Assembly (NCBI RefSeq): GCF_001688725.2 | Contig: NZ_CP015401.2 | Span: 930,001-994,000, forward strand | DNA from: Bacteroides caecimuris | GTDB taxonomy: Bacteria; Bacteroidota; Bacteroidia; Bacteroidales; Bacteroidaceae | Length of the DNA stretch: 64,000 nucleotides | Reading direction: 5' to 3' | Shown here: in pieces, positions 23,529 through 36,511 of the stretch | Layout of the letters: the number at the start of each line of letters is the position of its first letter | How positions within the stretch are numbered: position 1 is the stretch's first letter | The notes under the pieces: generated by a model | What the model saw: the letters and a program-made list of their open reading frames with translations, nothing else | What the model was told of the DNA's origin: nothing | Databases searched by the model: none | Program-made: the position numbers and the translations under genes

Positions 23529-23570
23529 TAATGGTTAGCAGGGAGCATCGTCAGATGCTATCTTTCGTTG
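23529..23570 (-). repeat. Cassette repeat R1 (stem type C)
   Basis: TAATGGTTAGCAGGGAGCAT with inner arms GCATC/GATGC. Last repeat at the distal end of the array. The gene at 23551 ends inside it. Confidence 0.8.
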
Positions 23571-24018
23571 TTTCTAATATATTTACAAATTCCAATCCGG
23601 TGAATAAACACCCAATCCCAATAAGGGGATAAACAATACCACATAAGACTGCAAGCATATTCAATCCTCGTTCATCTCCCGTGAAGCCGTCTAAACAAAC
23701 AGCTTGCAATATGAAGTTTGTAATTTGCCAATCCAATAAACTTTGGTCTATACAGATAAAGGCAAGCCACAAAAAGATAGAGCAACATTCCAAGCCCAAC
23801 AATAACATTATGGTTTTAGGTTGCATTGCATATAGTTTATAGACCTTGTAGATTACCAGTATATCTATGATTACAAGCATACCCAAAAGACAATATTCCA
23901 TAATGCCATATATACCGAACAGACGACCAAAGCCTAAGCCACCACAAAATAATGTAATGGCTATCAGCAAAGCACTGAAAGCTGTCAATAATACTATGGA
24001 TTGAACTGTTTTATTCAT
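23551..24018 (-). CDS. Four-helix membrane protein, putative immunity
   Basis: 155 aa from the ATG at 24018; a longer frame starts at a GTG inside repeat R2 and would add repeat-encoded residues. Four membrane helices, the first at residues 5-27. Its last residues TTKDSI are encoded by repeat R1, and the same six residues end the unrelated 110-aa protein at 24511 for the same reason. Cassette tags do not match here, so it may be a rearranged cassette. Not recognised by family. Confidence 0.6.
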   Translation of the reverse strand: MNKTVQSIVLLTAFSALLIAITLFCGGLGFGRLFGIYGIMEYCLLGMLVIIDILVIYKVYKLYAMQPKTIMLLLGLECCSIFLWLAFICIDQSLLDWQITNFILQAVCLDGFTGDERGLNMLAVLCGIVYPLIGIGCLFTGLEFVNILETTKDSI

Positions 24019-24032
24019 CTCACTATTGTTAG

Positions 24033-24078
24033 TAATGGGATAGCGTGGAATGCTGGTAGGCGTTATCACGCTTTGTTA
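24033..24078 (-). repeat. Cassette repeat R2 (stem type B)
   Basis: Core GGTAGGCGTTATCACGC. The same as R10, including about 12 bp beyond it (TAAACTCAATTTAC). Confidence 0.85.
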
Positions 24079-24088
24079 TAAACTCAAT

Positions 24089-24466
24089 TTACCTATTGGT
24101 ATAATAGTCTTTAAGTAGAAGCGGGAGAAAAAGCCAACCTACTATGCCTATTATAGAGATAGCAACAAAAAACCAATTCTTCCTGTTGGTGTTATTGTTC
24201 CTGTAATGGTTGTCCCATCTTCGGTATCTTTTTGTATCATCCCAAAATACGATTTCATTTATAAGCATAAATAAGATGGAAACAGATAGGAAAGCAACGT
24301 ATTTGGCTTCATGAACAAAATGGATTGGTGCTATCAGTGCCATTATCAATGCAATAAATGGGAGATGGAAAAACAAAAAGCCAATGTTATTTCCAGCTCT
24401 ACCATATCCAAGTAATCCCCAGAAGAAATACCTAATTGTAAAATACCAATAAATATACCAGTTCAT
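24089..24466 (-). CDS. Membrane protein, putative immunity
   Basis: 125 aa from ATG 24466 (MNWYIYWYFTIRYFFWG); the longer frame is made of repeat R3 sequence. Three or four membrane helices, one positively charged loop (KRYRRWDNHYRNNNTNRKNW). Its 3' end shares repeat and flanking bases with the 28720 cassette while its 5' tag does not match, which suggests a hybrid produced by recombination. Family unknown. Confidence 0.55.
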   Translation of the reverse strand: MNWYIYWYFTIRYFFWGLLGYGRAGNNIGFLFFHLPFIALIMALIAPIHFVHEAKYVAFLSVSILFMLINEIVFWDDTKRYRRWDNHYRNNNTNRKNWFFVAISIIGIVGWLFLPLLLKDYYTNR

Positions 24467-24488
24467 AATGTCAATTTCAAATTGATGA

Positions 24489-24533
24489 TAATGGTTAGAA
24501 AGGAGCATCGTCAGATGCTATCTTTCGTCGTTA
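24489..24533 (-). repeat. Cassette repeat R3 (stem type C)
   Basis: Arms GCATC/GATGC and AAAG/CTTT; ends CGTTATATG. Belongs to the 24511 cassette. Confidence 0.9.
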
Positions 24534-24843
24534 TATGTATTTCTTGAATATCACTGGCTACTATCATTCCATTCATACCAACAGATGAATCTATATGAAT
24601 GAACTTCAAAGTATCTTTTGATTGATAATTCTTCACCCAACTATACTCGCCAATCAGATAGGCTGGTATGTTGGCGTTCGTGAAGATATTGAGTTCAAAT
24701 ATAACATTTTGAATATCAAAAGAAGATAATTCCCACCATTCAACACCTTTACAAACCAAACGAATGTTTGATATAGTAAAGATTAGTGTTGCATCATCTT
24801 TTTGGTATGCAATTGATGTTATTTCTTTATCGTGATATTCCAT
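24511..24843 (-). CDS. Putative immunity protein, 110 aa, copy 1 of 3
   Basis: Small beta-rich, cytosolic protein (FTISNIRLVCKGVEWWELSSF, IPAYLIGEYSWVK). Not recognised. Identical proteins are encoded at 31006-31338 and 34391-34723. Stop codon lies within its own repeat R3, which supplies the C-terminal TTKDSI. Matched tags: TTATATGTA at the start and TACATATAA before the repeat. Confidence 0.75.
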   Translation of the reverse strand: MEYHDKEITSIAYQKDDATLIFTISNIRLVCKGVEWWELSSFDIQNVIFELNIFTNANIPAYLIGEYSWVKNYQSKDTLKFIHIDSSVGMNGMIVASDIQEIHITTKDSI

Positions 24844-24854
24844 ACTGTTACATA

Positions 24855-24899
24855 TAATGGTTAGAAAGGAGCATCGTCAGATGCTATCTTTCGTCGTTA
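24855..24899 (-). repeat. Cassette repeat R4 (stem type C)
   Basis: Same stem as R3. Ends CGTTAGATAC, the tag of the 24884 cassette. Confidence 0.9.
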
Positions 24900-25348
24900 G
24901 ATACTGATTTTATAGTTTCAAGAATATTGCCCGATACAATATTTTGAATACCACTGAATATATCACTGCCATAATAATAAACAAGATTGTCGTAATCAGC
25001 CCACACTTGTTCTTGTTCATCTAACCACACAATCAAATAGCCGGGATGAATGTCTGCTAAATAGATAACCTTATTGACCCCTAACTTCAAAGCCACTTTT
25101 TGCATAGCTTCCGGGCGGTATTTCTTTATTTTCTTGACATCAAAATAAAGAATATCAGATTGGTTCAGCTCTAATTTCATGTTATAGAATAGAGCAATCT
25201 TGCTTATAATACTTTCATTCAAAGGATAATCAAACTTAGAGTAGGATTGTCTTAACTTGTCTATGTAAGAATCCTGCATCATTTGAAAATTAAATTCGTC
25301 CCAATGGTTATGAACAAGTATTTCCTTTATTGCAGTAGGTATAATCAT
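24884..25348 (-). CDS. Putative immunity protein (possibly SUKH-3-like)
   Basis: 154 aa, cytosolic. The end ADIHPGYLIVWLDEQEQVWA, then DIFSGIQNIVSG, has the pattern of SUKH-3/YwqJ-type immunity proteins (a conserved hydrophobic strand, DE turn, then a glycine-containing helix), but the match is by eye only. The stop codon lies in repeat R4, in a different frame from the 110-aa gene, giving the tail NDER. Tags match: GTATCTAA/TTAGATAC. Confidence 0.6.
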   Translation of the reverse strand: MIIPTAIKEILVHNHWDEFNFQMMQDSYIDKLRQSYSKFDYPLNESIISKIALFYNMKLELNQSDILYFDVKKIKKYRPEAMQKVALKLGVNKVIYLADIHPGYLIVWLDEQEQVWADYDNLVYYYGSDIFSGIQNIVSGNILETIKSVSNDER

Positions 25349-25361
25349 TTCTAATTGTATC

Positions 25362-25376
25362 TAATGGGTTGCAACT
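25362..25376 (-). repeat. Reduced cassette repeat R5
   Basis: Only TAATGGGTTGCAAC remains; the whole hairpin (about 30-35 bp) is missing. The cassettes at 24884 and 25375 are thus separated by 26 bp instead of about 60. Confidence 0.6.
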
Positions 25377-25968
25377 AATTGTTTTCAGCACTTAGTTGTT
25401 TGTTAGTCATTCTCATTATTACTTCTTGTGCCTTCTTCTTCCATACTTGATTATTGATTTTCTCTAATCGTATTAAAGCATCATTTTTTTTATTCATTAT
25501 ATATTCAATACAAGCAATATATATTTGATGCAATTCTTGTTGAATAGCCTTTTCTTCGTAGAAAAGCATTATTCTATATAGCTTTTCAAATGATTTTATT
25601 TTATTAAAGAAAGGAATAATATCTTTTTCAATTAAGAAATTTATTCTTTCTTGTAATTCCTTTACATCTACATCTTCATAAAATTCAATGTCGCCATTTT
25701 CTTGAAAGAAATCAGAAATGCTACCTCTCAAACAACAATCTGTATTTTTTACACTTTTACCCTTTGGCACTTTACCCCAACACAAAGCAAAAACATCTGA
25801 AGAATAGATTCCTATCTCCAAAGTATAATATTGCCAATTTTTATCACAATATTTGCCTGGTTCAATTCTGAACATATAAACAAAAGGATCACATTGGCAT
25901 AACCAAGTTAAGCTATTCTTTTTAAAACCTTTTATTTTTATTCCTTTCGATAGTTCTTTGATATACAT
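25375..25968 (-). CDS. DUF4304-like putative immunity protein
   Basis: 197 aa, cytosolic. The N-terminus (KIKGFKKNSLTWLCQCDPFV, YTLEIGIYSSDVFALCWG) has the layout of DUF4304 proteins: GFKK, an aromatic strand, then a long helical tail rich in E and K. The match is by eye. Its cassette has lost its hairpin (R5), so on the model it can no longer be excised alone. Confidence 0.6.
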   Translation of the reverse strand: MYIKELSKGIKIKGFKKNSLTWLCQCDPFVYMFRIEPGKYCDKNWQYYTLEIGIYSSDVFALCWGKVPKGKSVKNTDCCLRGSISDFFQENGDIEFYEDVDVKELQERINFLIEKDIIPFFNKIKSFEKLYRIMLFYEEKAIQQELHQIYIACIEYIMNKKNDALIRLEKINNQVWKKKAQEVIMRMTNKQLSAENN

Positions 25969-25977
25969 ATTGTTTTA

Positions 25978-26024
25978 TAATGGTTTGGTGAGAAACAGCA
26001 TTAGCTGTTATCTCGGCCTTGTTA
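25978..26024 (-). repeat. Cassette repeat R6 (stem type D)
   Basis: AACAGCATTAGCTGTT stem with CGGCC; ends GTTAGTTG, tag of the 26033 cassette. Confidence 0.85.
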
Positions 26025-26032
26025 GTTGCTTA

Positions 26033-26803
26033 CTATATATTCTTAATGATTTCAATGTCTTGAATAGGTATATAACCTATATGGGCATTAAAAATGGAAT
26101 TTATTCTACACCAGCCATTTACTATTTTACTTATAACAACAGGCATTCCAAAACTAACTGCTATGCCATCTTCTCCTTCGGTAATTTTTTCTCCATCAGG
26201 TAAAGAATAAATGTAGGAGCTGCATAGTATGGCACTATCTCCAACTTGTGGCGTAAAATTCGTCCTTTTAGCATTCGGGGGGCTCTGTAATATTATATTA
26301 TACTGAGCTTCCATACATTTCGTAGATAGGAATAGGTATGCTTCAAAACAGTCATTACATTCATTCTCTTCAGGAAAATGCTCTATATGAAAACCCGGAG
26401 TGTCAGCATACAACTTTCCGTGAGTTTCATCTCCTCTATTATATACCCCATATATCAATCGCCCATTAGAATCATAATATGCGATACTGTGCAATGCACC
26501 CCCGTCAGCCCATCGCTTAAATACTTTCCTGATATTGTTATCGCTATCGAAATACATAGTGATCAATATATTGGCATTCTTAATATGACCATCATCTAAG
26601 ATTTTGTATGAATGGATTTGATCAAATTCCATATATTCATCCTCTATTACTTTTCCTAAACTATCTAAAGGAACAAGGTATGCAATTCTCAAAGGCATTT
26701 TGTTTATTGCATCAATCTCTGTTTGAATAGTTTCCTTATAGTTTTGTGCAAAAGCAAAAGGTGAAAGCAAGCATAAAATATAAAGTATTATTATCGTTCT
26801 CAT
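26033..26803 (-). CDS. Secreted protein with SH3-like C-terminus, putative periplasmic immunity
   Basis: 256 aa. Signal peptide (IIILYILCLLSPFAFA then Q). The middle has a MORN-like stretch (DSNGRLIYGVYNRGDETHG) with a cysteine pair (NECNDC). The end (VISKIVNGWCRINSIFNAHIGYIP) looks like a bacterial SH3 domain. Tags match (CAACTAAT/GTTAGTTG). An exported product would fit a toxin acting in the periplasm (inference). Confidence 0.65.
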   Translation of the reverse strand: MRTIIILYILCLLSPFAFAQNYKETIQTEIDAINKMPLRIAYLVPLDSLGKVIEDEYMEFDQIHSYKILDDGHIKNANILITMYFDSDNNIRKVFKRWADGGALHSIAYYDSNGRLIYGVYNRGDETHGKLYADTPGFHIEHFPEENECNDCFEAYLFLSTKCMEAQYNIILQSPPNAKRTNFTPQVGDSAILCSSYIYSLPDGEKITEGEDGIAVSFGMPVVISKIVNGWCRINSIFNAHIGYIPIQDIEIIKNI

Positions 26804-26811
26804 ATTACAAC

Positions 26812-26857
26812 TAATGGTTTAGCGGGGAACGCTGTTTAGCGTTATCCCGGTTTGTTA
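26812..26857 (-). repeat. Cassette repeat R7 (stem type A)
   Basis: AACGCT-GTTT-AGCGTT inside CGGG/CCCG. Repeat and gene are duplicated as R22. Confidence 0.9.
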
Positions 26858-26863
26858 GCAACT

Positions 26864-27667
26864 TTACTTTAGTTCATAACAAGCATAGAGTTCAATTTTA
26901 TTTCCTTCAAGAATATCATTGATTTGATACTCCAGTTCGCCCAAACTATTAACACTTGTTATTTGACGGTTGAAACCTAATTGTTCAATCTCCAAATCAA
27001 TACTTAAATGTCCGATTGATATAAAATTATCTTTCAACTTCTCTATATCCGTATAATATAGAGATAACTTGCGTACACCAAAACTTCCCATAACATTAGT
27101 TTTTGTTACAGGAACTTCTTCTATCAAAATCGTATCTATTGTTGGCTTTAGATAGTCATTGTAAGTAGTAGGAACAAAAGCATAATAAGCATCTTTCCTA
27201 TATTGATAAAAATCTTCAAAGATGAAACAGCGATACTTGTTATCAATTTGAAAGGCAATTACTTCTCCCTTTGTAAAAAGACTGTTTACAAGTATTTTAT
27301 GCTTTTTCGGCTTACGTACTTTCAAAATGGGTGCGCTTACCTTTTTGAGTAACTTTTGGAGTGCAATATTTCTTTGCGAAATAGCGGTTTTATCTATTTC
27401 AGCCCAAGTTCTATCAGCTCCGTTTTCCACGATAGCTTTAAGCAGTTTTACAAAATAATCGTCCAAAAGCCCTATTTCCCAAAGCGTAAGACAAGCAGTA
27501 GAAATATAAATTTCTAAATCAAGTGAAGATGATATATTTTGTAATCCATTTTTTAGATACGATTTAATTTCATCTGCCGACTGTCCGCTATCATATCTGT
27601 CCAATATTTCATTTTGAACATCTATGCCTAAATCACTTTCCAATATGTTTGTACCGTCAATCGCCAT
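26864..27667 (-). CDS. Putative immunity protein (DUF4259-like/Imm26-like), copy 1 of 2
   Basis: 267 aa. The ATG at 27667 is used; an ATG within repeat R8 adds 15 repeat-encoded residues in this copy only and is absent in the other copy. N-terminal helical part (AIDGTNILESDLGIDVQNE) is like DUF4259. The C-terminal half has GEVIAFQIDNKYRCFIFEDF, the strand pattern of Imm26-type immunity proteins. Identical protein at 35102-35905. Confidence 0.7.
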   Translation of the reverse strand: MAIDGTNILESDLGIDVQNEILDRYDSGQSADEIKSYLKNGLQNISSSLDLEIYISTACLTLWEIGLLDDYFVKLLKAIVENGADRTWAEIDKTAISQRNIALQKLLKKVSAPILKVRKPKKHKILVNSLFTKGEVIAFQIDNKYRCFIFEDFYQYRKDAYYAFVPTTYNDYLKPTIDTILIEEVPVTKTNVMGSFGVRKLSLYYTDIEKLKDNFISIGHLSIDLEIEQLGFNRQITSVNSLGELEYQINDILEGNKIELYACYELK

Positions 27668-27688
27668 ATTTGTTATTTTTTTTGTTGC

Positions 27689-27734
27689 TAATGGGATAGC
27701 GGGGAACGCCATTAGGCGTTATCACGCTTCGTTA
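27689..27734 (-). repeat. Cassette repeat R8 (stem type B)
   Basis: Stem AACGCC-ATTA-GGCGTT, tag side GTTACCGAT as in R15. The 27745 cassette start does not match it. Confidence 0.85.
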
Positions 27735-27744
27735 CCGATATATT

Positions 27745-28182
27745 CTATAAGTAAATGTTAGACCATTTTGTATCATCGCCCCATTTTCTTTTTTTACTAT
27801 CAATAAGCCACTTATTTGATTTACATACACAGACATAGCAATGAAGTTCCTTCATCAATCCTTTTTCGATACATGTATATACATGGAACTTGTTTTTTGT
27901 AACTCTTTCTATGTCTGTGATAGTTTCTTTACTGGGGTCATATTTATAACTGCCTTCAAGTCCCCATGAAAGGCAATTCGGTAAACCCATTTTTCTGTCC
28001 TTTGAGGTACAGAATTGGATGAAAATAGAACTTATTTTCAACTTCATCAATTCTGTTTTTTCTTTTTCCGACAAATCAGGATTATTGTCTATATCTTCAC
28101 AATATATTTCCCAACCATTCATTTCTGTGAAAAATGCGATGATTGTTCTTTCTATTTCCTGTTTTATTTCTAAATCTTCCAT
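27745..28182 (-). CDS. NTF2-fold-like putative immunity protein
   Basis: 145 aa, cytosolic. Long N-terminal helix, a conserved middle (LPNCLSWGLEGSYKYDPSKE) and the end CYVCVCKSNKWLIDSKKRKWGD, which is the usual last strand pattern (WLID.K) of NTF2-fold immunity proteins. Family call by eye. One of four cassettes whose tags do not match. Confidence 0.6.
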   Translation of the reverse strand: MEDLEIKQEIERTIIAFFTEMNGWEIYCEDIDNNPDLSEKEKTELMKLKISSIFIQFCTSKDRKMGLPNCLSWGLEGSYKYDPSKETITDIERVTKNKFHVYTCIEKGLMKELHCYVCVCKSNKWLIDSKKRKWGDDTKWSNIYL

Positions 28183-28201
28183 TTCTCTAAATTTATTGGT
28201 T

Positions 28202-28247
28202 TAATGGCTAAGCGGGGAACGCTGTCAAGCGTTATCCCGGTTTGTTA
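28202..28247 (-). repeat. Cassette repeat R9 (stem type A)
   Basis: AACGCTGTCAAGCGTT in CGGG/CCCG; tag GTTAATAAC. Confidence 0.9.
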
Positions 28248-28650
28248 ATAACTTTTTTCTTCTCAATAGATGCGAAACTCCAATTACCAAGAGCAGATAG
28301 GCAACCAGCAAACTTTGATAAAACCAATACTTATGAAATTTGCCTATGTCTGCTAAAAAAATCTTTTCGCTTGAACCTTGATGAACCACGAATCTATATT
28401 CATCACAAAACAAATAATATTCAAAACTCATTAGGTAGGCAAGTGCCAATATAGATAAGGCGATTAGGCGTGATATTTTATGATGTAGCCACAAATCGCT
28501 TCCTATAAACAGCACTGAAAAGACAGCCCAATACATAGATGCAAGCGAAAAATGCCACCCTGTTTCGTATAAGGGGCTTATAATACCGATACCTGCATAA
28601 AGCGTACTTGCCAATAGTAAGTAATACAATATTATTTTTATAATTTTCAT
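28225..28650 (-). CDS. Four-helix membrane protein, putative immunity
   Basis: 141 aa from ATG 28650 (a GTG nine bases earlier is possible). Four membrane helices with short loops; ends in a basic tail (RRKKLLTNRDNA). It resembles the 155-aa protein at 35933 in topology and in the ending (LLTNRDN/LLTKQDN), so the two are probably paralogues. The last codons lie in repeat R9. Confidence 0.65.
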   Translation of the reverse strand: MKIIKIILYYLLLASTLYAGIGIISPLYETGWHFSLASMYWAVFSVLFIGSDLWLHHKISRLIALSILALAYLMSFEYYLFCDEYRFVVHQGSSEKIFLADIGKFHKYWFYQSLLVAYLLLVIGVSHLLRRKKLLTNRDNA

Positions 28651-28668
28651 GTTTCGCACTATTGTTAT

Positions 28669-28714
28669 TAATGGGATAGCGTGGAACGCTGGTAGGCGTT
28701 ATCACGCTTTGTTA
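28669..28714 (-). repeat. Cassette repeat R10 (stem type B)
   Basis: GGAACGCTGGTAGGCGTTAT; tag GTTATAAAC matches GTTTATAAT at R11. Confidence 0.9.
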
Positions 28715-28719
28715 TAAAC

Positions 28720-29469: not shown

Positions 29470-29487
29470 ATTTTACATTACTGTTTA

Positions 29488-29535
29488 TAATGGTTTGGTG
29501 AGGAACAGCGTTTAGCTGTTGGCTCGACCTTGTTA
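29488..29535 (-). repeat. Cassette repeat R11 (stem type D)
   Basis: AACAGC-GTTT-AGCTGTT with GAG/CTC; tag GTTAGCAAAA. Confidence 0.88.
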
Positions 29536-29543
29536 GCAAAATA

Positions 29544-30338
29544 TTATACCCATTCTAATATTGGGTTAGGTCTATGAACAAGATACTGTTTATTACCCGG
29601 AATTGAAAATGTTATTCCTGTAATGCGATTTCGTTCAAGTTCCTCTTTTAGTTTGTCAGATATATAAATCATCCATGAAAAGTAGGGTATTTGAAACAAA
29701 TCCATTGAAAAATCAAAAGAACGATTAAAATATATCGTATCAACTTGTTCAAAATTCCAATACTCCTCAGATAAAGTAGATATTTGTTTTTGATTTTTTT
29801 CTCTTAGCTTTGCCGTTTCAGACAACTTACTTATCATTTCCGATATAGTTTTGTTATGTATAGGCAAGTTCTCTACATCTTTTCTATCTCTGACTAAGAG
29901 ATATTCTCCTGCATTTGTTTTTATCCGAATATTAGATTTTTCATAATCAATCATTCCTAATATATCATTTTGAATATAGGTAAAGTCGTAATGTAGAGCG
30001 TAATAGTTGGCATCTACCTTATTCCTCTTTTTAGGCATATAAACATCTACATTAAAAAAACGATGTTCGGGTAAAGAACAAAGTTCTATGATGTTTTTGG
30101 CTTTTTCGGATATACACAAATGCTCTATCGGGCTGAAAATAAAATCATTCAACCTATTAAATTCCACATCATCATAAATCCTAATTTCAAGATTTAAGTC
30201 AGGAACTTGTTCCGGATATGCACCGTATTCTTTGATATATTCTCTCAAAGAGAATTTCGGCTGCTTTTTCCAATAGTTCTTTGTAAACTCCGCAGAACTT
30301 GTGTCCTCAACTTCTAATACATAGTATTCTTTGTTCAT
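29544..30338 (-). CDS. Imm43/DUF1629-like putative immunity protein
   Basis: 264 aa, cytosolic. The order YYVLEVEDT, FSPIEHLCISEKAKNIIEL, RFFNVDVYMPKK, NYYALHYDFTYI, MIDYEKS matches the scaffold of the Imm11/DUF1629/Imm43 superfamily (strand, conserved S in a helix start, paired strands, D-x-x-KS). The call is by eye. Tags match over 10 bp. Confidence 0.65.
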   Translation of the reverse strand: MNKEYYVLEVEDTSSAEFTKNYWKKQPKFSLREYIKEYGAYPEQVPDLNLEIRIYDDVEFNRLNDFIFSPIEHLCISEKAKNIIELCSLPEHRFFNVDVYMPKKRNKVDANYYALHYDFTYIQNDILGMIDYEKSNIRIKTNAGEYLLVRDRKDVENLPIHNKTISEMISKLSETAKLREKNQKQISTLSEEYWNFEQVDTIYFNRSFDFSMDLFQIPYFSWMIYISDKLKEELERNRITGITFSIPGNKQYLVHRPNPILEWV

Positions 30339-30355
30339 AGACTTTCTGTTTTTGC

Positions 30356-30402
30356 TAATGGCTTGACAAGGAACTGCGTTTAGCAGCTATCTTGGCTCGT
30401 TA
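30356..30402 (-). repeat. Cassette repeat R12
   Basis: CTGCGTTTAGCAG stem with CAAG/CTTG; tag GTTACTAAC. Confidence 0.88.
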
Positions 30403-30406
30403 CTAA

Positions 30407-30961: not shown

Positions 30962-30983
30962 ATCTGTTGCTCTAAATTGTTAG

Positions 30984-31028
30984 TAATGGTTAGAAAGGAG
31001 CATCGTCAGATGCTATCTTTCGTCGTTA
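30984..31028 (-). repeat. Cassette repeat R13 (stem type C)
   Basis: Identical to R3 and R20; it travels with the 110-aa cassette. Confidence 0.9.
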
Positions 31029-31338
31029 TATGTATTTCTTGAATATCACTGGCTACTATCATTCCATTCATACCAACAGATGAATCTATATGAATGAACT
31101 TCAAAGTATCTTTTGATTGATAATTCTTCACCCAACTATACTCGCCAATCAGATAGGCTGGTATGTTGGCGTTCGTGAAGATATTGAGTTCAAATATAAC
31201 ATTTTGAATATCAAAAGAAGATAATTCCCACCATTCAACACCTTTACAAACCAAACGAATGTTTGATATAGTAAAGATTAGTGTTGCATCATCTTTTTGG
31301 TATGCGATTGATGTTATTTCTTTATCGTGATATTCCAT
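31006..31338 (-). CDS. Putative immunity protein, 110 aa, copy 2 of 3
   Basis: Protein identical to copies at 24511 and 34391; one silent base change was noticed (gcgattgatg here, gcaattgatg in the other two). The unit shared by the copies runs from TAATG of the R13 side to TACATATAATG of the R14 side. Beyond that point the flanks differ. Confidence 0.78.
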   Translation of the reverse strand: MEYHDKEITSIAYQKDDATLIFTISNIRLVCKGVEWWELSSFDIQNVIFELNIFTNANIPAYLIGEYSWVKNYQSKDTLKFIHIDSSVGMNGMIVASDIQEIHITTKDSI

Positions 31339-31349
31339 ACTGTTACATA

Positions 31350-31396
31350 TAATGGTTTGCAGCTTGCCGCCGTTTAGGCGGAACAGGTGCTTGTTA
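31350..31396 (-). repeat. Cassette repeat R14 (stem type E)
   Basis: CCGCC-GTTTA-GGCGG stem with AGCTTG; tag GTTAGCTACG. Confidence 0.88.
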
Positions 31397-31406
31397 GCTA
31401 CGTTCC

Positions 31407-32030
31407 TTATTGTTCCAGTTTTCGTTTTACAATATCTACAAACTCCTCTTTAGTCATGAACTTGTTTAGAAAGTCTTCTAATGCTCCCTCATTAGTAACA
31501 TCTGTGAAAAACACCTCATGGTCTGTACTCCAGACAATCGGATTCTCTGGATTGAGGTCTGATAAACAGATGTAATAGTAATTGGGATAACTATCCGTAT
31601 AAAGCAATCCTATAAAGGCGGGAGTGGCACAGGTTGAATGTTGAATGATTTCGCCCAACTCTGCATCATCTGAAAACCAATCATTCCATTCTTCAAAATC
31701 TTTTGTCCCTTCTTGAAACGGTGTAAAAGGTTTGGCAACCCAAAATAATTGCCTGCGAGGTTCTTCATTCAATGTATAGTAGGCATCTACCATTTTCTTA
31801 TAGAATGCCTCTCTGTCAGAATTGAACAATTCAGTATTTTCATCCACCCAATCGCCCAAACCTTCAATCGGTTCTGTGTCTTCGGCAGATAGCCAAGGCG
31901 TATCTTCCGGCTTTTTATACAATGCGGTATTAAAAGTTATAGCACACAAGTCTTCGGATAAAGACGTTCCTTTTACATTGGTGACATTACCGCCTAATTG
32001 CTTTATTCGGTTTATAATTTCCTGTTTCAT
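31407..32030 (-). CDS. SMI1/KNR4 (SUKH)-family putative immunity protein
   Basis: 207 aa, cytosolic. The C-terminal half YPNYYYICLSDLNPENPIVW, STDHEVFF and LEDFLNKFMTKEEFVDIV is the typical end of SUKH-fold proteins found beside polymorphic toxins. N-terminal half is acidic and holds the W-rich part (LFWVAKPF, EEWNDWFSDD). Tags match (CGTAGCTAA/TTAGCTACG). Confidence 0.75.
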   Translation of the reverse strand: MKQEIINRIKQLGGNVTNVKGTSLSEDLCAITFNTALYKKPEDTPWLSAEDTEPIEGLGDWVDENTELFNSDREAFYKKMVDAYYTLNEEPRRQLFWVAKPFTPFQEGTKDFEEWNDWFSDDAELGEIIQHSTCATPAFIGLLYTDSYPNYYYICLSDLNPENPIVWSTDHEVFFTDVTNEGALEDFLNKFMTKEEFVDIVKRKLEQ

Positions 32031-32055
32031 GACTTCTATTTTTTTCGTTCGTAGC

Positions 32056-32101
32056 TAATGGCTAAGCGGGGAACGCTGTCAAGCGTTAGCACGCTTTGTT
32101 A
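32056..32101 (-). repeat. Cassette repeat R15
   Basis: AACGCTGTCAAGCGTT stem as R9 but right half CACGC as type B: a mosaic of types A and B. Tag GTTACCGAT. Confidence 0.88.
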
Positions 32102-32109
32102 CCGATGGT

Positions 32110-32643
32110 TTAACTTTCAAAGTCTTTTGAATTAACAAGCCCACGAATAAACTCCTCAAAACATGCTGCAAGCGTAGTAATCTTATAATCGTTTTCTTCA
32201 TCAATATGGACAACACTTGGTTCTCCTGCTAAACCACATTTGCGATAATCCAAGAATATCATATCATGTCCGGCAGAAGGAGTGGTGCATATCGCTATTC
32301 CAATGGTTGGATAGCCCCATTCATCAATCCAAAAACGATTTCCCATTTCTCCGCAAAGAGAATAAGGTTTATCTTTATCTATTCCCATAATTCCACTTAT
32401 TGTTATATGGTTATTTGCCCAAGAAGTCGGGATTTAAGTTGGAAAACATGTATTGACAGGTTCTCCACCATTACATTGTTTTATCAGCGCAATATAAGAT
32501 TGGGGCAATTTATATCCCAATTCATTTTCAATATCTTTAACTTCTTCATCAGTAGGTGTTGTCCCTATATAATATTTTTGGGCATATTCATTATTATCCC
32601 AAAAACTGGAAAAGTCAAAATCTTTAAAAGGAGTTTTATTCAT
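32110..32643 (-). pseudogene. SUKH (SMI1/KNR4) gene with a premature stop codon
   Basis: One reading frame of 178 codons with a TAA at 32434-32436 (codon 70). Before the stop: a SUKH N-terminus ending CNGGEPVNTCFPT. After it, in the same frame: IPTSWANNHITISGI, then YSLCGEMGNRFWIDEWGYP, SAGHDMIFLDYRKCG and a typical C-terminus. Both halves are needed for the fold. No repeat separates them and the outer tags match (ATCGGTAA/TTACCGAT), so they are one cassette. A single base change (for example AAA or GAA to TAA) explains it. A restart at ATG 32388 is possible but would lack the N-terminal domain. Confidence 0.85.
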
Positions 32644-32668
32644 GACTGTATATTTTCTGTTTTATCGG

Positions 32669-32715
32669 TAATGGTTTGACGGGGAACGGCGTTAGTCCGT
32701 TATCCCGTCTTGTTA
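32669..32715 (-). repeat. Cassette repeat R17
   Basis: AACGGC-GTTA-GTCCGTT with ACGGGG/CCCGT; tag GTTAATATTAAA. Confidence 0.88.
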
Positions 32716-32724
32716 ATATTAAAT

Positions 32725-33330
32725 TTATGTTTCCTGATAGATTGTTTCAGAATATAATTCTGTCGAAAGAATAATAGATTTTAATTCTCCATTAGGTTTA
32801 TAATCAAATGAATGTTGTAACGTATCCTGTTCAATATCATTTCTATCAAATTGTCTTATAACTATTTTTTGTAGGCGGTCATTTTCATAAAAATATGTTT
32901 CTTCTCTACTTCCACGAGAACCCTTTGAATACATTTTCTCTATTTTACCATTACTTCCATATTGATAATATCGGACATTCACAATACGTTTGCTATTATC
33001 ATATGCAATAGTTTTCATAAGTTCCTTTTCATAAATGAAAAAGGTGTAATAGAATTGATTTTTAAGTTCCAAGCCCTCTCGGATTTCTATAATTTGATTT
33101 TTTACATCGAAATAATAAGTAAATAGGTTATTAGTTGTTTTGAGAGAAGTTACATTTCCAACTATTTTCCCTTGCTTAAACCTGTTTCTTTGATAAGAAT
33201 AAGGGGATATTTCGTAGAACTCACCTTTGTAATTCTCTTCCCTTACAACATTCTTATCAATTTCTCTTTTCAATTCATCAAACATATTTCTCAATGAATT
33301 AAAATCATCTTTCAATTTATCAGGTATCAT
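32725..33330 (-). CDS. Putative immunity protein, unknown family
   Basis: 201 aa, cytosolic, beta-rich. Contains a run of strands with YD/wapA-like spacing (YYQYGSNGKIEKMYSKGS, TYFYENDRLQKIVIRQFD, HSFDYKPNGELKSIIL). Not recognised. Tags match over 11 bp. Confidence 0.6.
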   Translation of the reverse strand: MIPDKLKDDFNSLRNMFDELKREIDKNVVREENYKGEFYEISPYSYQRNRFKQGKIVGNVTSLKTTNNLFTYYFDVKNQIIEIREGLELKNQFYYTFFIYEKELMKTIAYDNSKRIVNVRYYQYGSNGKIEKMYSKGSRGSREETYFYENDRLQKIVIRQFDRNDIEQDTLQHSFDYKPNGELKSIILSTELYSETIYQET

Positions 33331-33348
33331 AGTGTTTCCTTTTAATAT

Positions 33349-33391
33349 TAATGGTTAGCAGGGAACGGCTTGCCGTTATCCTGCGTTGTTA
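33349..33391 (-). repeat. Cassette repeat R18 (stem type G)
   Basis: AACGGC-TT-GCCGTT within AGCAGG/CCTGC; tag GTTAGCAAC. Confidence 0.88.
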
Positions 33392-34032
33392 GCAACCTCT
33401 TTAATTCTCACCTGATATTTTTGTAATTGCCATTTTTTATCAATCAACAAATATGTTGCGGACAATTCGTTTTTAGAATCGTCTATTATCCAAGTTAAAT
33501 CTTGAACTTTAATACCTTGCTCATTGTCTGCAAATCTTTTCTCTTTCGGATTGCCAAATAACTTTATACAATGTTCATAAGATGAAGTTTCTATTACAGA
33601 TAGTTTATATTGTCCGTTTTCGTTTGGTAGCCATAAATTTTCGATAAGGAATAACCGCATATCCTCTACTAATTCTTTTTCTACTGATTTGAGAACGGGG
33701 AGTTTATATATGTATTTATGTATATTAGCAGAGAAAAATGGAAAGAAGTGTTTTCCCATTATTCTTCGCTGCATAGATACATTATCTTTGTATGGATTAA
33801 ATTCATCCAGTGGCATTATTAAATCCATACCCAACCAATTTACATCTTTTTCATATCTCACTTTCGACCTAATACCTACTGTGGAATATAATGCCCTAAA
33901 ACAAAACAAGAAAACAAAGTCTATTTCACTATATTTCGTTTCTATAATTCCCGAAAAATCTTTCAAATCATTGCTTATGTCTGAGACCTTGATGTATCCC
34001 GGAGAATCCGATGTTATTCTTATTCGTTCCAT
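33376..34032 (-). CDS. Putative immunity protein, unknown family
   Basis: 218 aa, cytosolic, mixed alpha/beta. Features seen: FVFLFCFRALYSTVG, MPLDEFNPYKDN, TWIIDDSKNELSATYLLI. The last residues (EVANNAG) are encoded by repeat R18. Not recognised. Confidence 0.6.
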   Translation of the reverse strand: MERIRITSDSPGYIKVSDISNDLKDFSGIIETKYSEIDFVFLFCFRALYSTVGIRSKVRYEKDVNWLGMDLIMPLDEFNPYKDNVSMQRRIMGKHFFPFFSANIHKYIYKLPVLKSVEKELVEDMRLFLIENLWLPNENGQYKLSVIETSSYEHCIKLFGNPKEKRFADNEQGIKVQDLTWIIDDSKNELSATYLLIDKKWQLQKYQVRIKEVANNAG

Positions 34033-34053
34033 ATTTGTTGATTATATTGTTGC

Positions 34054-34101
34054 TAATGTTTGGCAGCTAATCGCCATTTCTGGCGATTGAGGTGCGTGTT
34101 A
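34054..34101 (-). repeat. Cassette repeat R19 (stem type F)
   Basis: AATCGCCA-TTTC-TGGCGATT perfect 8-bp stem; tag GTTAGTGATATT. Copy of R21. Confidence 0.9.
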
Positions 34102-34109
34102 GTGATATT

Positions 34110-34352
34110 TTATATTTTAATACAAAGCATATTTTCTATGTAATTGACAAGCTCGATTCTATCCATTTCCATGCATGAATCAGCATCCATCATCATTATT
34201 TCATAGACGACCTCTTTCAACTTTTCATCTGTAATTATATAATCAGAATAGCATAAAAAGGCGTATTGGGCAATTTCTATAGCATCATAATTGTCATGAT
34301 GTACATATTGCCTTATTTCACTTGCAAACATTTCTTTTGATAATAACTTCAT
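34110..34352 (-). CDS. Putative immunity protein, 80 aa, copy 1 of 2
   Basis: Small acidic helical protein (VHHDNYDAIEIAQYAFLCYS, EIMMMDADSCMEMD), similar in size and charge to DNase-colicin-type immunity proteins, though no family is claimed. Identical to 34791-35033. Tags match over 12 bp. Confidence 0.7.
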   Translation of the reverse strand: MKLLSKEMFASEIRQYVHHDNYDAIEIAQYAFLCYSDYIITDEKLKEVVYEIMMMDADSCMEMDRIELVNYIENMLCIKI

Positions 34353-34368
34353 ATTTTAACAATATCAC

Positions 34369-34413
34369 TAATGGTTAGAAAGGAGCATCGTCAGATGCTA
34401 TCTTTCGTCGTTA
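34369..34413 (-). repeat. Cassette repeat R20 (stem type C)
   Basis: Identical to R3 and R13. Confidence 0.9.
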
Positions 34414-34723
34414 TATGTATTTCTTGAATATCACTGGCTACTATCATTCCATTCATACCAACAGATGAATCTATATGAATGAACTTCAAAGTATCTTTTG
34501 ATTGATAATTCTTCACCCAACTATACTCGCCAATCAGATAGGCTGGTATGTTGGCGTTCGTGAAGATATTGAGTTCAAATATAACATTTTGAATATCAAA
34601 AGAAGATAATTCCCACCATTCAACACCTTTACAAACCAAACGAATGTTTGATATAGTAAAGATTAGTGTTGCATCATCTTTTTGGTATGCAATTGATGTT
34701 ATTTCTTTATCGTGATATTCCAT
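34391..34723 (-). CDS. Putative immunity protein, 110 aa, copy 3 of 3
   Basis: Same protein as 24511 and 31006. This copy is sandwiched between the two identical 80-aa cassettes, so the local order is 80-aa, 110-aa, 80-aa. That order needs at least two separate insertion or copying events, not one block duplication. Confidence 0.78.
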   Translation of the reverse strand: MEYHDKEITSIAYQKDDATLIFTISNIRLVCKGVEWWELSSFDIQNVIFELNIFTNANIPAYLIGEYSWVKNYQSKDTLKFIHIDSSVGMNGMIVASDIQEIHITTKDSI

Positions 34724-34734
34724 ACTGTTACATA

Positions 34735-34782
34735 TAATGTTTGGCAGCTAATCGCCATTTCTGGCGATTGAGGTGCGTGTTA
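34735..34782 (-). repeat. Cassette repeat R21 (stem type F)
   Basis: Identical core to R19. Confidence 0.9.
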
Positions 34783-34790
34783 GTGATATT

Positions 34791-35033
34791 TTATATTTTA
34801 ATACAAAGCATATTTTCTATGTAATTGACAAGCTCGATTCTATCCATTTCCATGCATGAATCAGCATCCATCATCATTATTTCATAGACGACCTCTTTCA
34901 ACTTTTCATCTGTAATTATATAATCAGAATAGCATAAAAAGGCGTATTGGGCAATTTCTATAGCATCATAATTGTCATGATGTACATATTGCCTTATTTC
35001 ACTTGCAAACATTTCTTTTGATAATAACTTCAT
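34791..35033 (-). CDS. Putative immunity protein, 80 aa, copy 2 of 2
   Basis: Same as the 34110 gene over the whole cassette. On its high-coordinate side the shared sequence ends at AATATCACTAATGGTT, the proposed crossover. Confidence 0.7.
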   Translation of the reverse strand: MKLLSKEMFASEIRQYVHHDNYDAIEIAQYAFLCYSDYIITDEKLKEVVYEIMMMDADSCMEMDRIELVNYIENMLCIKI

Positions 35034-35049
35034 ATTTTAACAATATCAC

Positions 35050-35095
35050 TAATGGTTTAGCGGGGAACGCTGTTTAGCGTTATCCCGGTTTGTTA
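35050..35095 (-). repeat. Cassette repeat R22 (stem type A)
   Basis: Identical to R7. Confidence 0.9.
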
Positions 35096-35101
35096 GCAAC
35101 T

Positions 35102-35905
35102 TTACTTTAGTTCATAACAAGCATAGAGTTCAATTTTATTTCCTTCAAGAATATCATTGATTTGATACTCCAGTTCGCCCAAACTATTAACACTTGTTAT
35201 TTGACGGTTGAAACCTAATTGTTCAATCTCCAAATCAATACTTAAATGTCCGATTGATATAAAATTATCTTTCAACTTCTCTATATCCGTATAATATAGA
35301 GATAACTTGCGTACACCAAAACTTCCCATAACATTAGTTTTTGTTACAGGAACTTCTTCTATCAAAATCGTATCTATTGTTGGCTTTAGATAGTCATTGT
35401 AAGTAGTAGGAACAAAAGCATAATAAGCATCTTTCCTATATTGATAAAAATCTTCAAAGATGAAACAGCGATACTTGTTATCAATTTGAAAGGCAATTAC
35501 TTCTCCCTTTGTAAAAAGACTGTTTACAAGTATTTTATGCTTTTTCGGCTTACGTACTTTCAAAATGGGTGCGCTTACCTTTTTGAGTAACTTTTGGAGT
35601 GCAATATTTCTTTGCGAAATAGCGGTTTTATCTATTTCAGCCCAAGTTCTATCAGCTCCGTTTTCCACGATAGCTTTAAGCAGTTTTACAAAATAATCGT
35701 CCAAAAGCCCTATTTCCCAAAGCGTAAGACAAGCAGTAGAAATATAAATTTCTAAATCAAGTGAAGATGATATATTTTGTAATCCATTTTTTAGATACGA
35801 TTTAATTTCATCTGCCGACTGTCCGCTATCATATCTGTCCAATATTTCATTTTGAACATCTATGCCTAAATCACTTTCCAATATGTTTGTACCGTCAATC
35901 GCCAT
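35102..35905 (-). CDS. Putative immunity protein (DUF4259-like/Imm26-like), copy 2 of 2
   Basis: 267 aa, same as the 26864 gene, about 8 kb away. Here the upstream repeat R23 gives no in-frame ATG extension, which confirms ATG 35905 as the true start for both copies. Confidence 0.7.
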   Translation of the reverse strand: MAIDGTNILESDLGIDVQNEILDRYDSGQSADEIKSYLKNGLQNISSSLDLEIYISTACLTLWEIGLLDDYFVKLLKAIVENGADRTWAEIDKTAISQRNIALQKLLKKVSAPILKVRKPKKHKILVNSLFTKGEVIAFQIDNKYRCFIFEDFYQYRKDAYYAFVPTTYNDYLKPTIDTILIEEVPVTKTNVMGSFGVRKLSLYYTDIEKLKDNFISIGHLSIDLEIEQLGFNRQITSVNSLGELEYQINDILEGNKIELYACYELK

Positions 35906-35926
35906 ATTTGTTATTTTTTTTGTTGC

Positions 35927-35970
35927 TAATGGTTAGCAGGGAACGGCTTGTCCGTTATCCTGCTTCGTTA
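35927..35970 (-). repeat. Cassette repeat R23 (stem type G)
   Basis: AACGGCTTGTCCGTT within AGCAGG/CCTGC; tag GTTAATAAC. Confidence 0.88.
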
Positions 35971-36400
35971 ATAACTCTTTTCTTTTCAATAGATATGAAA
36001 TACATATTGTCAAGAATAAATAAAAAACAAGAATTTGGCTCGCCAACCATACAAAAATGAAATCATCAATATTGGGCGGAAGATATGCGTCATAAGGTGA
36101 ATATTTAAGTCCACTCCAATATTCTTGCAATTCTTCCATTTTGAAATAGTAGATATATGACCATATATTGAAACACAATAGAATGGTAATCGAAATCGCT
36201 CTCAAGGCTATTTTATGCAAAATAATATCTAAGATTACAAACAATAACAATGCGACTATCAACAAGAACGTTTGTAGAAATGGGGTGAAATCCATTGTTC
36301 CATTTGTATCTACTATACATATAGACCACCTTAAAATACCCACTATTATTCCAAATAGGAGAAAATAGGCTATATGGTATATCTTGTTTTTTATGTTCAT
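35933..36400 (-). CDS. Four-helix membrane protein, putative immunity
   Basis: 155 aa with four membrane helices (about residues 5-25, 35-55, 62-85, 115-135). Likely paralogue of the 28225 protein. Its C-terminus (NGQAVPC) is encoded by repeat R23. First ordinary cassette after the long repeat R24. Tags match. Confidence 0.65.
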   Translation of the reverse strand: MNIKNKIYHIAYFLLFGIIVGILRWSICIVDTNGTMDFTPFLQTFLLIVALLLFVILDIILHKIALRAISITILLCFNIWSYIYYFKMEELQEYWSGLKYSPYDAYLPPNIDDFIFVWLASQILVFYLFLTICISYLLKRKELLTKQDNGQAVPC

Positions 36401-36414
36401 CTTTAAGTTGTTAT

Positions 36415-36511
36415 TAATGTATTTGTAAGATCACCCGTAGGTGCTGTTTATTGTGGTAAACGACACCCGACAGGTGTGTTTCCTAATCTCTAATAGCTGC
36501 ACCTTTTGTTA
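36415..36511 (-). repeat. Long cassette repeat R24 (97 bp), next to the recombinase side
   Basis: Twice the length of the others. Outer TAATG/GTTA as usual, then AGGTGC/GCACCT arms enclosing two hairpins: ACACC/GGTGT and GTTTA/TAAAC. It ends inside the stop codon of the gene at 36509. It may be a primary attachment site (attI-like) or a large attC-like variant. Confidence 0.7.

Follow-up and report, generated by a model that had tools for sequence, protein, structure and literature searches.

How does a string of bacterial immunity genes gain, lose and reorder its members? The question is raised by a locus of Bacteroides caecimuris, in which short co-oriented genes separated by hairpins are arranged behind a tyrosine recombinase gene. 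Recombinase-associated acquired interbacterial defence (rAID) was reportedly first described by Ross et al. in 2019. According to the available part of a 2025 preprint, a rAID system of Bacteroidales has a tyrosine recombinase gene followed downstream by short genes of low GC content that all point the same way; the motifs between genes are conserved, orphan immunity genes are present, and how gene copies are gained is "not yet clear" (PMC12247911). The rAID definition also takes in homology to the recombinase of B. fragilis NCTC 9343 (BF9343_RS08045) and orphan T6SS immunity genes.

We analysed the window, which is the whole stretch of 64,000 nucleotides containing this locus. A preliminary description had proposed an integron-like array with self-complementary cassette ends. 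The observation is confirmed as real and general, and the integron-like interpretation is supported by the sequence comparisons below. We consider it highly probable that this rAID-fitting, immunity-type array gains, loses and reorders its genes by integron-like site-specific cassette recombination.

Results

The features of the locus are listed in Table 1. All 22 cassettes described previously, running in one direction, were recovered; their sites have the form tag'-TAAC-hairpin-CA|TTA-tag within 23529-35970 and lie on the minus strand, which is the recombinase strand. Most cassettes carry a single gene as described, but the cassette 32060-32673 holds two ORFs, and thus the 22 cassettes carry 23 ORFs. 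The leading CATTA at 36419 is the end of the attI-like block and not a cassette end. Site 22 resembles a hybrid of two site types, and its stem is partly broken. The sites 32060 and 28206 have the 3' half in common and also look hybrid, and identical sites recur within one array.

Table 1. Features of the cassette locus in the window.
Feature	Coordinates	Strand	Remarks
Tyrosine recombinase	37331..38437	-	368 aa; Pfam PF00589/PF13495; no I2 insertion
BatD-like gene	36509..37255	-	Between recombinase and attI-like block; Pfam BatD 9.6e-10
attI-like block	36418..36503	-	Ends at A|TTA ahead of first cassette; conserved with relatives up to junction
Cassette array	23529..36417	-	22 cassettes, 23 ORFs, co-oriented with recombinase; gene GC 0.27-0.39
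attC-like site 1	35927..35970	-	Own tag TTAATAAC matched
attC-like site 2	35050..35095	-	Tag TTAGCAAC matched
attC-like site 3	34735..34782	-	Tag TTAGTGATATT matched
attC-like site 4	34369..34413	-	Tag TTATATGTA matched
attC-like site 5	34054..34101	-	Tag TTAGTGATATT matched
attC-like site 6	33349..33391	-	Tag TTAGCAAC matched
attC-like site 7	32669..32715	-	Tag TTAATATTAAA matched
attC-like site 8	32056..32101	-	Tag TTACCGAT matched
attC-like site 9	31350..31396	-	Tag TTAGCTACG matched
attC-like site 10	30984..31028	-	Tag TTATATGTA matched
attC-like site 11	30356..30402	-	Tag TTACTAAC matched
attC-like site 12	29488..29535	-	Tag TTAGCAAAA matched
attC-like site 13	28669..28714	-	Tag TTATAAAC matched
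attC-like site 14	28202..28247	-	Tag TTAATAAC matched
attC-like site 15	27689..27734	-	Tag unmatched
attC-like site 16	26812..26857	-	Tag TTAGCAAC matched
attC-like site 17	25978..26024	-	Tag matched, 7 nt (TTAGTTG)
attC-like site 18	25362..25405	-	Tag unmatched; hairpin divergent
attC-like site 19	24855..24899	-	Tag TTAGATAC matched
attC-like site 20	24489..24533	-	Tag TTATATGTA matched
attC-like site 21	24033..24078	-	Tag unmatched; near-copy of site 13
attC-like site 22	23529..23573	-	Distal array end; AAAC core; tag unmatched
SUKH-3-like cassette gene	24884..25348	-	Pfam 3e-4; 21.4 bits, just below cut-off 23
NTF2-fold immunity protein cassette gene	27745..28182	-	Pfam Imm-NTF2 2.8e-16
Imm11 immunity family cassette gene	29544..30338	-	Pfam 9.8e-9
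SUKH-1-type gene, two ORF pieces	32110..32643 (32110-32388, 32434-32643)	-	Pfam, opposite ends of SMI1_KNR4

A rAID locus has at least two downstream co-directional genes below 41% GC; here all 23 ORFs lie on one strand within the GC range given in Table 1. Among the 18 of 23 cassette ORFs searched against Pfam, immunity-type families were found in five (SUKH-3 below the cut-off, Imm-NTF2, Imm11 and the two SUKH-1 pieces) and DUF4304 in one, and 12 gave no match.

The recombinase has an N-terminal extension of about 90 aa. Its score against TIGR02249 (integron integrase) is 197 bits, below the cut-off of 265 bits, and its best NCBIfam score is that of NF040815 (216 bits against a cut-off of 220 bits). 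No TIGR02249 match over the cut-off was found in any of 12 recombinase-bearing genomes that were checked, the window's genome included. In the available parts of the sources, an integron is marked by an IntI integrase that carries the I2/patch III additional domain (PMC9668308, PMC9024848, PMC7790495). This insertion is present in 20/20 Bacteroidota IntI and absent in 32/32 recombinases of the group (16 of the rAID group and 16 further); the stretch spanning I2 is 76-77 aa long in the group versus 118 aa in IntI. The tree support for a group separate from IntI is 89/92 and 100/100, with rows shorter than 250 aa left out of the trees and four near-copies also left out of the second. The group falls apart from the three Xer-like proteins included in the tree. 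AlphaFold modelled the recombinase with moderate quality (mean pLDDT 73.7, pTM 0.47), and strands and helices are predicted for residues 10-71 of the N-terminal part. Among solved structures, the integron integrase 2a3v is nearest to it both in sequence and in Foldseek; the best Foldseek matches of the predicted structure are 2a3v and XerA, which do not decide the family to which it belongs. Because the IntI-specific insertion is missing and the score is below the integron-integrase cut-off, the recombinase, judged by its sequence, is not an integron integrase. This is the most surprising part of the present results, and the point was absent from the preliminary description.

Complementarity between the start of a cassette and the bases before its own repeat had been claimed for 18 of the 22 cassettes, and the same count was reached. 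Among the 21 window cassettes whose site has TAAC, 18 show agreement of 7-11 nt (TTA included) between their own start and their own R''; the distal site 23533 (AAAC) was left out of this comparison, and its tag fails in 5-base scoring. The failing cassettes end at 27693, 25366, 24037 and 23533. For a wider comparison, 170 cassettes were taken from the window, from further loci of its genome and from relatives, and were collapsed into 104 distinct tag pairs, two neighbouring site pairs being skipped for distance. The own R'' matches the own start at all five variable bases in 82 of the 104 pairs and at four or more in 93; 22 pairs fail at one position or more, 11 of them at one position only. 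The R'' matches the start of the next cassette in 2/104, and shuffled pairs gave a mean of 2.4 and a maximum of 8. Thus, tags pairing no better than shuffled ones were looked for and not seen, and the R'/R'' relation holds in the window, in the same genome's other loci and in related loci. The match rate after TTA is 0.88-0.93 at the first five bases, 0.51 at the sixth and then 0.23-0.42.

According to folding energies computed with RNA parameters and applied to the DNA sites, the own tag folds more stably than the tag of the next cassette in 131 of 142 cassettes, and equally in 9 (6 of the 148 distinct cassettes, with a core not ending in TTA, were omitted). In the alignment of the 17 distinct window sites, from which 5 of the 22 were omitted as identical to others, compensatory two-sided changes occur in 9 of 11 stem pairs, and at some pairs up to 5/17 sites are unpaired. 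These changes, the sites and the own-tag rule are seen directly in the sequence. In the folded site, an additional base is frequently present in the L stem, on the R''-L'' arm. The inverted-repeat search as set overlooked short interrupted hairpins.

The recombinase may instead act on double-stranded sites, Xer-like with inverted arms, so that the pairing is only the symmetry of protein-binding arms; we regard this as possible but doubtful. Xer-like relatives use double strands. The I2 helix, absent here, docks the extrahelical bases of the folded attC in IntI, and is reported to be necessary for cassette capture by IntI, in the available part of PMC7790495. However, bound arms should have a common sequence, whereas the tag bases are free (62 distinct 5-nt tags among the 148 distinct cassettes, with 3-4 Watson-Crick types at each of the five positions) and yet complementary. 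Changes in the L stems are two-sided, as expected if pairing matters, and the same part of that source describes Xer proteins without I2 serving single-strand integrating elements such as CTXphi (PMC7790495).

Junctions were located by comparing copies of the same cassette in different contexts. With different left neighbours (95 pairs), identity is 0.26-0.62 at -25 to -6, 0.87 at -2, 1.0 at -1 to +2 and 0.84-0.95 at +3 to +14. With different right neighbours (78 pairs), it is 0.72-0.97 at -45 to -4, 0.99-1.0 at -3 to +2 and 0.26-0.44 at +3 to +7. CATTA is present in 193/200 sites, and therefore the comparison alone cannot place junctions inside CATTA. The precise crossover at A|TTA proposed earlier holds as an edge, but is resolved only to the base before TTA through the third base of TTA. 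Junctions breaking away from this edge were looked for in cassettes of differing context and not seen. Cassette orders differ: among the 46 cassette families with more than one member, 44 have at least two different left neighbours, and 14 occur both beside the attI-like block and internally.

Movement of the cassettes through homologous recombination between similar hairpins, or their copying by gene conversion, with the recombinase serving another role, is improbable. Exchange inside the hairpin would part the tags from their partners, but the matched pairs prevail, and the junctions lie at one edge and are not spread over the 45-nt repeat. The repeated identical sites nevertheless fit such exchange, and the hybrid-looking sites (23533; 32060 versus 28206) suggest that homologous recombination is also at work. 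We give very little credence to the hairpins acting between co-transcribed genes to terminate transcription or to direct RNA processing: each hairpin follows a gene and folds, and a role in RNA is also possible, but this reading predicts neither the complementarity of start and far end, the CATTA-edge junctions nor the attI-like block, a conserved T-run 3' of the hairpin is absent from the site alignment, and Rfam gave no family at gathering score on the sites.

In the window, the recombinase is followed by a gap of 914 bp that holds the BatD-like gene. The start of the first cassette, predicted from its own R'', lies directly 3' of a conserved block in 25/28 loci, and in 21 of those 25 it is 57-93 bp past the recombinase match. 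As with an integron attI, one entry point beside the integrase gene, the block ends at A|TTA and is followed by differing first cassettes. Cassettes probably enter at this block.

A tag-blind site model found 157 further sites in 23 of 28 related loci, all 157 on the recombinase strand. In the 4.84-Mb genome, 39/39 reported sites lie within its five recombinase loci (the genome-wide scan scored 150 of 1155 first-look candidates). Reverse-strand counts were dropped as a control of the own-tag scan. Because the reverse complement of an inverted pair is the same pair, these counts are equal by construction and the scan cannot tell array direction. Relatives of the recombinase with 73-98% identity are found in Bacteroides, Phocaeicola, Parabacteroides and other named Bacteroidales genomes. 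At E <= 1e-60, a recombinase of the group is present in 73/295 genomes sampled from the order and 9/151 sampled from the family; arrays were checked in part of the recombinase-bearing ones.

Fifteen wider loci were chosen by eye from the order-wide list for available downstream sequence. Relatives with 40-55% identity adjoin arrays with 130-141-nt attC-like sites in 7/10 loci scanned, the controls being dinucleotide-shuffled sequence and windows elsewhere in those loci; 4 of 19 wider sites, having no next GTT in range, were left unfolded. The TAAC/CATTA rule gave no array in L050, L051 and L026 (the last two have little sequence past the recombinase), one site in L055 and one doubtful match in L056. 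No chained sites were found in L115, L117 and L120, and a direct-repeat search in three wider loci found little.

Discussion

The own-tag rule, the placement of the sites on the recombinase strand, the CATTA junctions and the attI-like block indicate that the array probably works like an integron. A cassette would consist of one gene and a site, with R' (A|TTANNNNN) at its start and R'' (N'N'N'N'N'TAAC) ahead of the hairpin. The complementary R' and R'' would be brought together once the cassette circularises. As a folded single strand, the site of the circle would form an R stem, an unpaired spacer, an L stem and a loop, giving an attC-like substrate. The recombinase would then join the cassette site, at A|TTA, to the attI-like site by its own gene or to the site of another cassette. 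We infer that the neighbouring recombinase is the acting enzyme, that cassette circles are formed and that the folded single strand is the substrate; neither a circle nor an empty attI was seen in the sequences analysed.

We lean towards a broader view, in which a group of tyrosine recombinases without I2, apart from IntI, recombine cassettes at self-folding sites in an integron-like way throughout Bacteroidales. Gut species would have short A|TTA sites with immunity-type genes, and more distant families 130-141-nt G|TT sites with phage-defence and other cargo. If this is true, folded-site cassette recombination would not require I2, and a sister system lacking I2, ancestral or convergent, would stand beside the integrons. 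In the available part of PMC7790495, I2 and single-strand recombination are regarded as exclusive to IntI; the foldable attC-like arrays beside I2-less recombinases, in genomes of which the 12 checked gave no IntI over the cut-off, bear on this view. For the gain of copies in rAID systems, we offer the site, the edge, the attI-like block and the pairing rule, which are testable with two plasmids. The small defence genes strung together in gut Bacteroidales are apparently swapped via self-folding DNA ends, rather as integrons exchange antibiotic-resistance genes, but beside a recombinase without the I2 helix.

Comparison with known systems

The window resembles rAID systems in its recombinase, its co-oriented low-GC genes and its SUKH, Imm-NTF2 and Imm11 matches. 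The available part of PMC12247911 mentions conserved motifs between genes, but describes neither the anatomy of the sites nor a crossover edge, an attI or an own-tag rule. The XerA-like family NF040815 ('site-specific tyrosine recombinase/integron integrase') gives the best-scoring model, and the recombinase lacks I2 as Xer-like proteins do; it differs in its link to cassette arrays, its N-terminal extension and its separate tree group.

Integron attC sites, in the available part of PMC2727003, have edges conserved as AAC/GTT and extra R''-L'' bases, and their R'/R'' pairing may extend to 9-11 nt. Integrons, including those of Bacteroidota and VCR-type sites, share with the present system an attI-like site by the recombinase, one-direction cassettes ending in attC-like sites of variable, foldable sequence, the pairing of own R' and R'', the AAC/GTT edges and the extra bases on the R''-L'' arm. 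In contrast, the edge of the gut family is A|TTA with TAAC, versus G|TT with AAC in integrons, and the recombinase has no IntI insertion. The arrays here lie 3' of the recombinase, whereas own-tag chains, scored without shuffle control, start 5' of IntI in 5/6 control loci.

Sites in the window and the own-tag rule

On the minus strand of the window, 22 sites of one plan were found. Five variable bases (the tag) are followed by TAAC and, after a short spacer, by an interrupted hairpin; then come CATTA and the five variable bases of the next cassette. According to the preliminary description, the cassette start (R') is complementary to the bases preceding the cassette's own repeat (R'') in 18 of the 22 cassettes. 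This own-tag rule was reproduced. In 18 of the 21 cassettes with TAAC, the start and the reverse complement of the bases before TAAC share runs of 7–11 nt; the last site has AAAC in place of TAAC, and its tag fails. Two-sided changes were observed at 9 of the 11 consensus stem pairs in at least one of the 17 distinct sites of the window, and single pairs are unpaired in up to 5 of the 17.

Positions of individual features in the window and in the compared recombinase loci (L-numbers)
Locus	Position	Feature	Remark
Window	1473–3804	Group II intron (Rfam)	Flanks the region on one side
Window	23529–23573	Distal site	Core AAAC, stem partly broken; hybrid-looking, 5' half similar to site 34373, 3' half to sites 35931/33353
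Window	32110–32643	SUKH-1-type gene	Two ORF pieces, one for each end of the Pfam model; the gene is probably broken
Window	36509–37255	BatD-like gene	Between recombinase and attI-like block
Window	40486–42909	Group II intron (Rfam)	Flanks the region on the other side
L012	about 5103–5115 (oriented)	Cassette start CATTAG|TTATGTGCC	R'' fits the second TTA, at an offset of four bases; possibly a sign of a shifted crossover
L026	after 11104	Sequence similar-looking to BatD-like gene region	Follows the recombinase
L039	5574–8658	Three sites upstream of recombinase, same strand	May belong to the end of a different array

Generality of the sites

A covariance model of the sites was built without the tags. 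It detected 43 sites in the window together with the remaining recombinase loci of its genome. Of 28 recombinase loci taken from public genome contigs, nearly all named as Bacteroidales, 23 yielded sites, 157 in total; all 157 sites are on the strand of the recombinase. When the whole 4.84-Mb genome was searched (150 of 1155 first-look candidates scored), all 39 matches reported at E ≤ 0.1 were located inside its five recombinase loci. This genome carries four recombinase copies 85–100% identical to that of the window and one at 47%, and its arrays have cassettes in common.

The 200 pooled sites contain TAAC in 191 cases and CATTA in 193, and give 170 cassettes with 104 distinct tag pairs. The own start and the own R'' agree at all five variable bases in 82 of the 104 pairs and at four or more in 93, and the agreement ends after the fifth base. 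After shuffling, a mean of 2.4 pairs agree (maximum 8); tags no more complementary than shuffled ones, the outcome named beforehand as evidence against the rule, were not seen. The R'' and the start of the next cassette agree in only two pairs. Half of the 22 failing pairs fail at one base, and several sit in long stretches where a missed site may be hidden. As 62 different tags are present among 148 distinct cassettes, it is the pairing that is kept, not the sequence.

Three loci have a recombinase 47–49% identical to that of the window (L012, L053 and L054). The hairpin is different, and the own-tag rule is unchanged. In L054, the agreement extends over at least 8 nt in all seven consecutive pairs. 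In L012, six of the seven pairs of the first run agree, and the remaining one matches after CATTAG, at an inward offset of four bases; past a 4.1-kb gap, two more pairs fail. The automatic call gave two of five pairs in L053, and a third is added if the second TAAC is taken.

Position of the cassette edge

A total of 195 cassettes were grouped into 123 families, and 103 same-cassette pairs were compared. At least two different left neighbours were found in 44 of the 46 multi-member families, and the window and L009 contain common cassettes in a different order. In the 95 pairs with different left neighbours, the identity is 0.26–0.62 over −25 to −6 and 1.0 over −1 to +2. In the 78 pairs with different right neighbours, it is 0.99–1.0 over −3 to +2 and 0.26–0.44 over +3 to +7, and climbs again at +8 and +9 (0.85 and 0.77), where most cassettes have A.

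Because CATTA is common to nearly all sites, exceptions are needed to place the edge inside it. One cassette type, present in three loci (L036, L027 and L039), starts with TTC and has GAAC as its own R''; therefore, the third base is the cassette's own. In the gut family (gut species with short A|TTA sites), the attI-like blocks have A or C two bases ahead of TTA, and the sites have C there. In L012, the locus of the 47%-identical copy in the genome of the window, G is the last base ahead of the first cassette, and the sites end in A. Judged from these sequence differences, the edge falls between the base before TTA and the third base of TTA. The crossover at A|TTA proposed in the preliminary description is included in this stretch, which is wider than a single phosphate.

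The attI-like block

The first-cassette start predicted from its own R'' was found directly after the conserved block in 25 of the 28 loci with sites. The distance from the end of the recombinase match is 57–93 bp in 21 of these 25 loci, 914–916 bp in the window and L009, 834 bp in L049 and 1317 bp in L025. L052 misses the prediction by one base, the first model match of L039 is upstream of the recombinase, and the first site of L012 was missed by the model, its first cassette beginning 65 bp after the recombinase. The blocks of L028, L029 and L031 are nearly identical up to the junction, after which different cassettes follow.

Wider relatives

Of 295 sampled genomes of the order, 73 contain a recombinase match at E ≤ 1e-60. 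Fifteen further loci with recombinases 40–55% identical were picked; five end at a contig edge 164–433 bp past the recombinase, as expected beside repeats, and the remaining ten were scanned for GTTR...YAAC own-tag pairs. With 8-nt tags, a paired start was found within 260 bp after the recombinase in nine of the ten (shuffled mean 1.4, maximum 5; other 260-bp windows, 107/657), and 11 junctions chained at 105–130 nt in seven (shuffled mean 0.9, maximum 4), those of L110 being weak. With 9-nt tags, the paired start was found in eight loci (shuffled mean 0.65, maximum 2), with nine junctions (mean 0.13, maximum 1). A looser scan (7 nt, 40–140), run as a positive control, gave own-tag chains beginning just 5' of IntI in five of six loci. 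Fifteen of the 19 wider sites were closed and folded (130–141 nt, −25.6 to −57.2 kcal/mol); five meet a strict template (spacer 2 by 4–5, two symmetric single mismatches), and most others meet looser variants.

In all 18 own-tag stretches picked from eight loci, the largest ORF is on the array strand. According to Pfam, ten of these ORFs comprise one Shedu (SduA) domain, one DNA methylase, one Abi_2 (at the cut-off), five matches to families not tied to defence and two without a match; PADLOC, applied to seven of the 18 proteins, gave one further candidate, PDC-S18. The Shedu, methylase, Abi_2 and PDC-S18-like genes are in own-tag stretches of L109 and L121. These genes give the cargo there a leaning towards phage defence, in contrast to the immunity-type genes of the gut arrays.

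The recombinase

The window recombinase is a phage integrase with a SAM-like N-terminal domain (Pfam). Its top NCBIfam score is 216 bits for NF040815 (cut-off 220), and the integron integrase model TIGR02249 gives 197 bits in two pieces (cut-off 265). The best solved relative by sequence, 2a3v, is an integron integrase, and also matches in two pieces. The span from GKGxKxR to HxLRHSF is 118 residues in 20 IntI, 76–77 residues in 16 rAID-group and 16 further recombinases (an array is in view for part of these 32), and 80–88 residues in three Xer-like proteins. Of 198 sampled Bacteroidota genomes, 57 contain IntI above the cut-off; in the 12 searched genomes carrying such recombinases, none was found. 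In the tree, IntI forms one group (support 100/100), and all 28 rows lacking I2, the IntI-specific insertion, are on one side of a branch with support 89/92, below the usual threshold; the outgroup is three long-branched proteins only. Y-recombinases about 50% identical over residues 129–366 were seen on Acinetobacter plasmids; the matching records also include rhizobial plasmids, and one uncultured-bacterium record names the protein TnpF.

Comparison with known systems

Ross et al. in 2019 reportedly regarded the structure of the clusters as suggestive of active gene acquisition. The window locus fits the description of rAID, the recombinase-associated acquired interbacterial defence system, in the consulted part of PMC12247911. 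No description of the site, the tag rule or an I2-less integron-like family was found in open-literature titles and abstract openings, which is weak evidence of absence.

In the sections consulted, a survey of tyrosine recombinases (Mol Syst Biol 2021, PMC8138268) states that the insertion is not fully conserved in an integron-like subgroup, yet essential for integron function. I2 and single-strand recombination are regarded as exclusive to IntI in the excerpts seen of another article (eLife 2020, PMC7790495), which also mention that elements such as CTXphi make use of Xer proteins lacking I2. We propose that one strand of a putative circular cassette would fold, and that this recombinase would join it either to the attI-like site or to a second cassette's site.

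According to the part of PMC2727003 consulted, attC sites are made up of R''-L'' and L'-R'. Their pairing covers 7 nt and may reach 9–11 nt, only AAC/GTT is common to them, and the extra bases are located on the R''-L'' arm. For 126 distinct cores, each closed with its own tag, interior loops were counted with the R''-L'' arm given first and the L'-R' arm second. The most frequent are 1x0 (69), 2x1 (56), 1x1 (55) and the 3x6 spacer (53), and 29 loops are the opposite way (0x1, 0x3, 0x4). The gut sites match the plan of integron attC sites.
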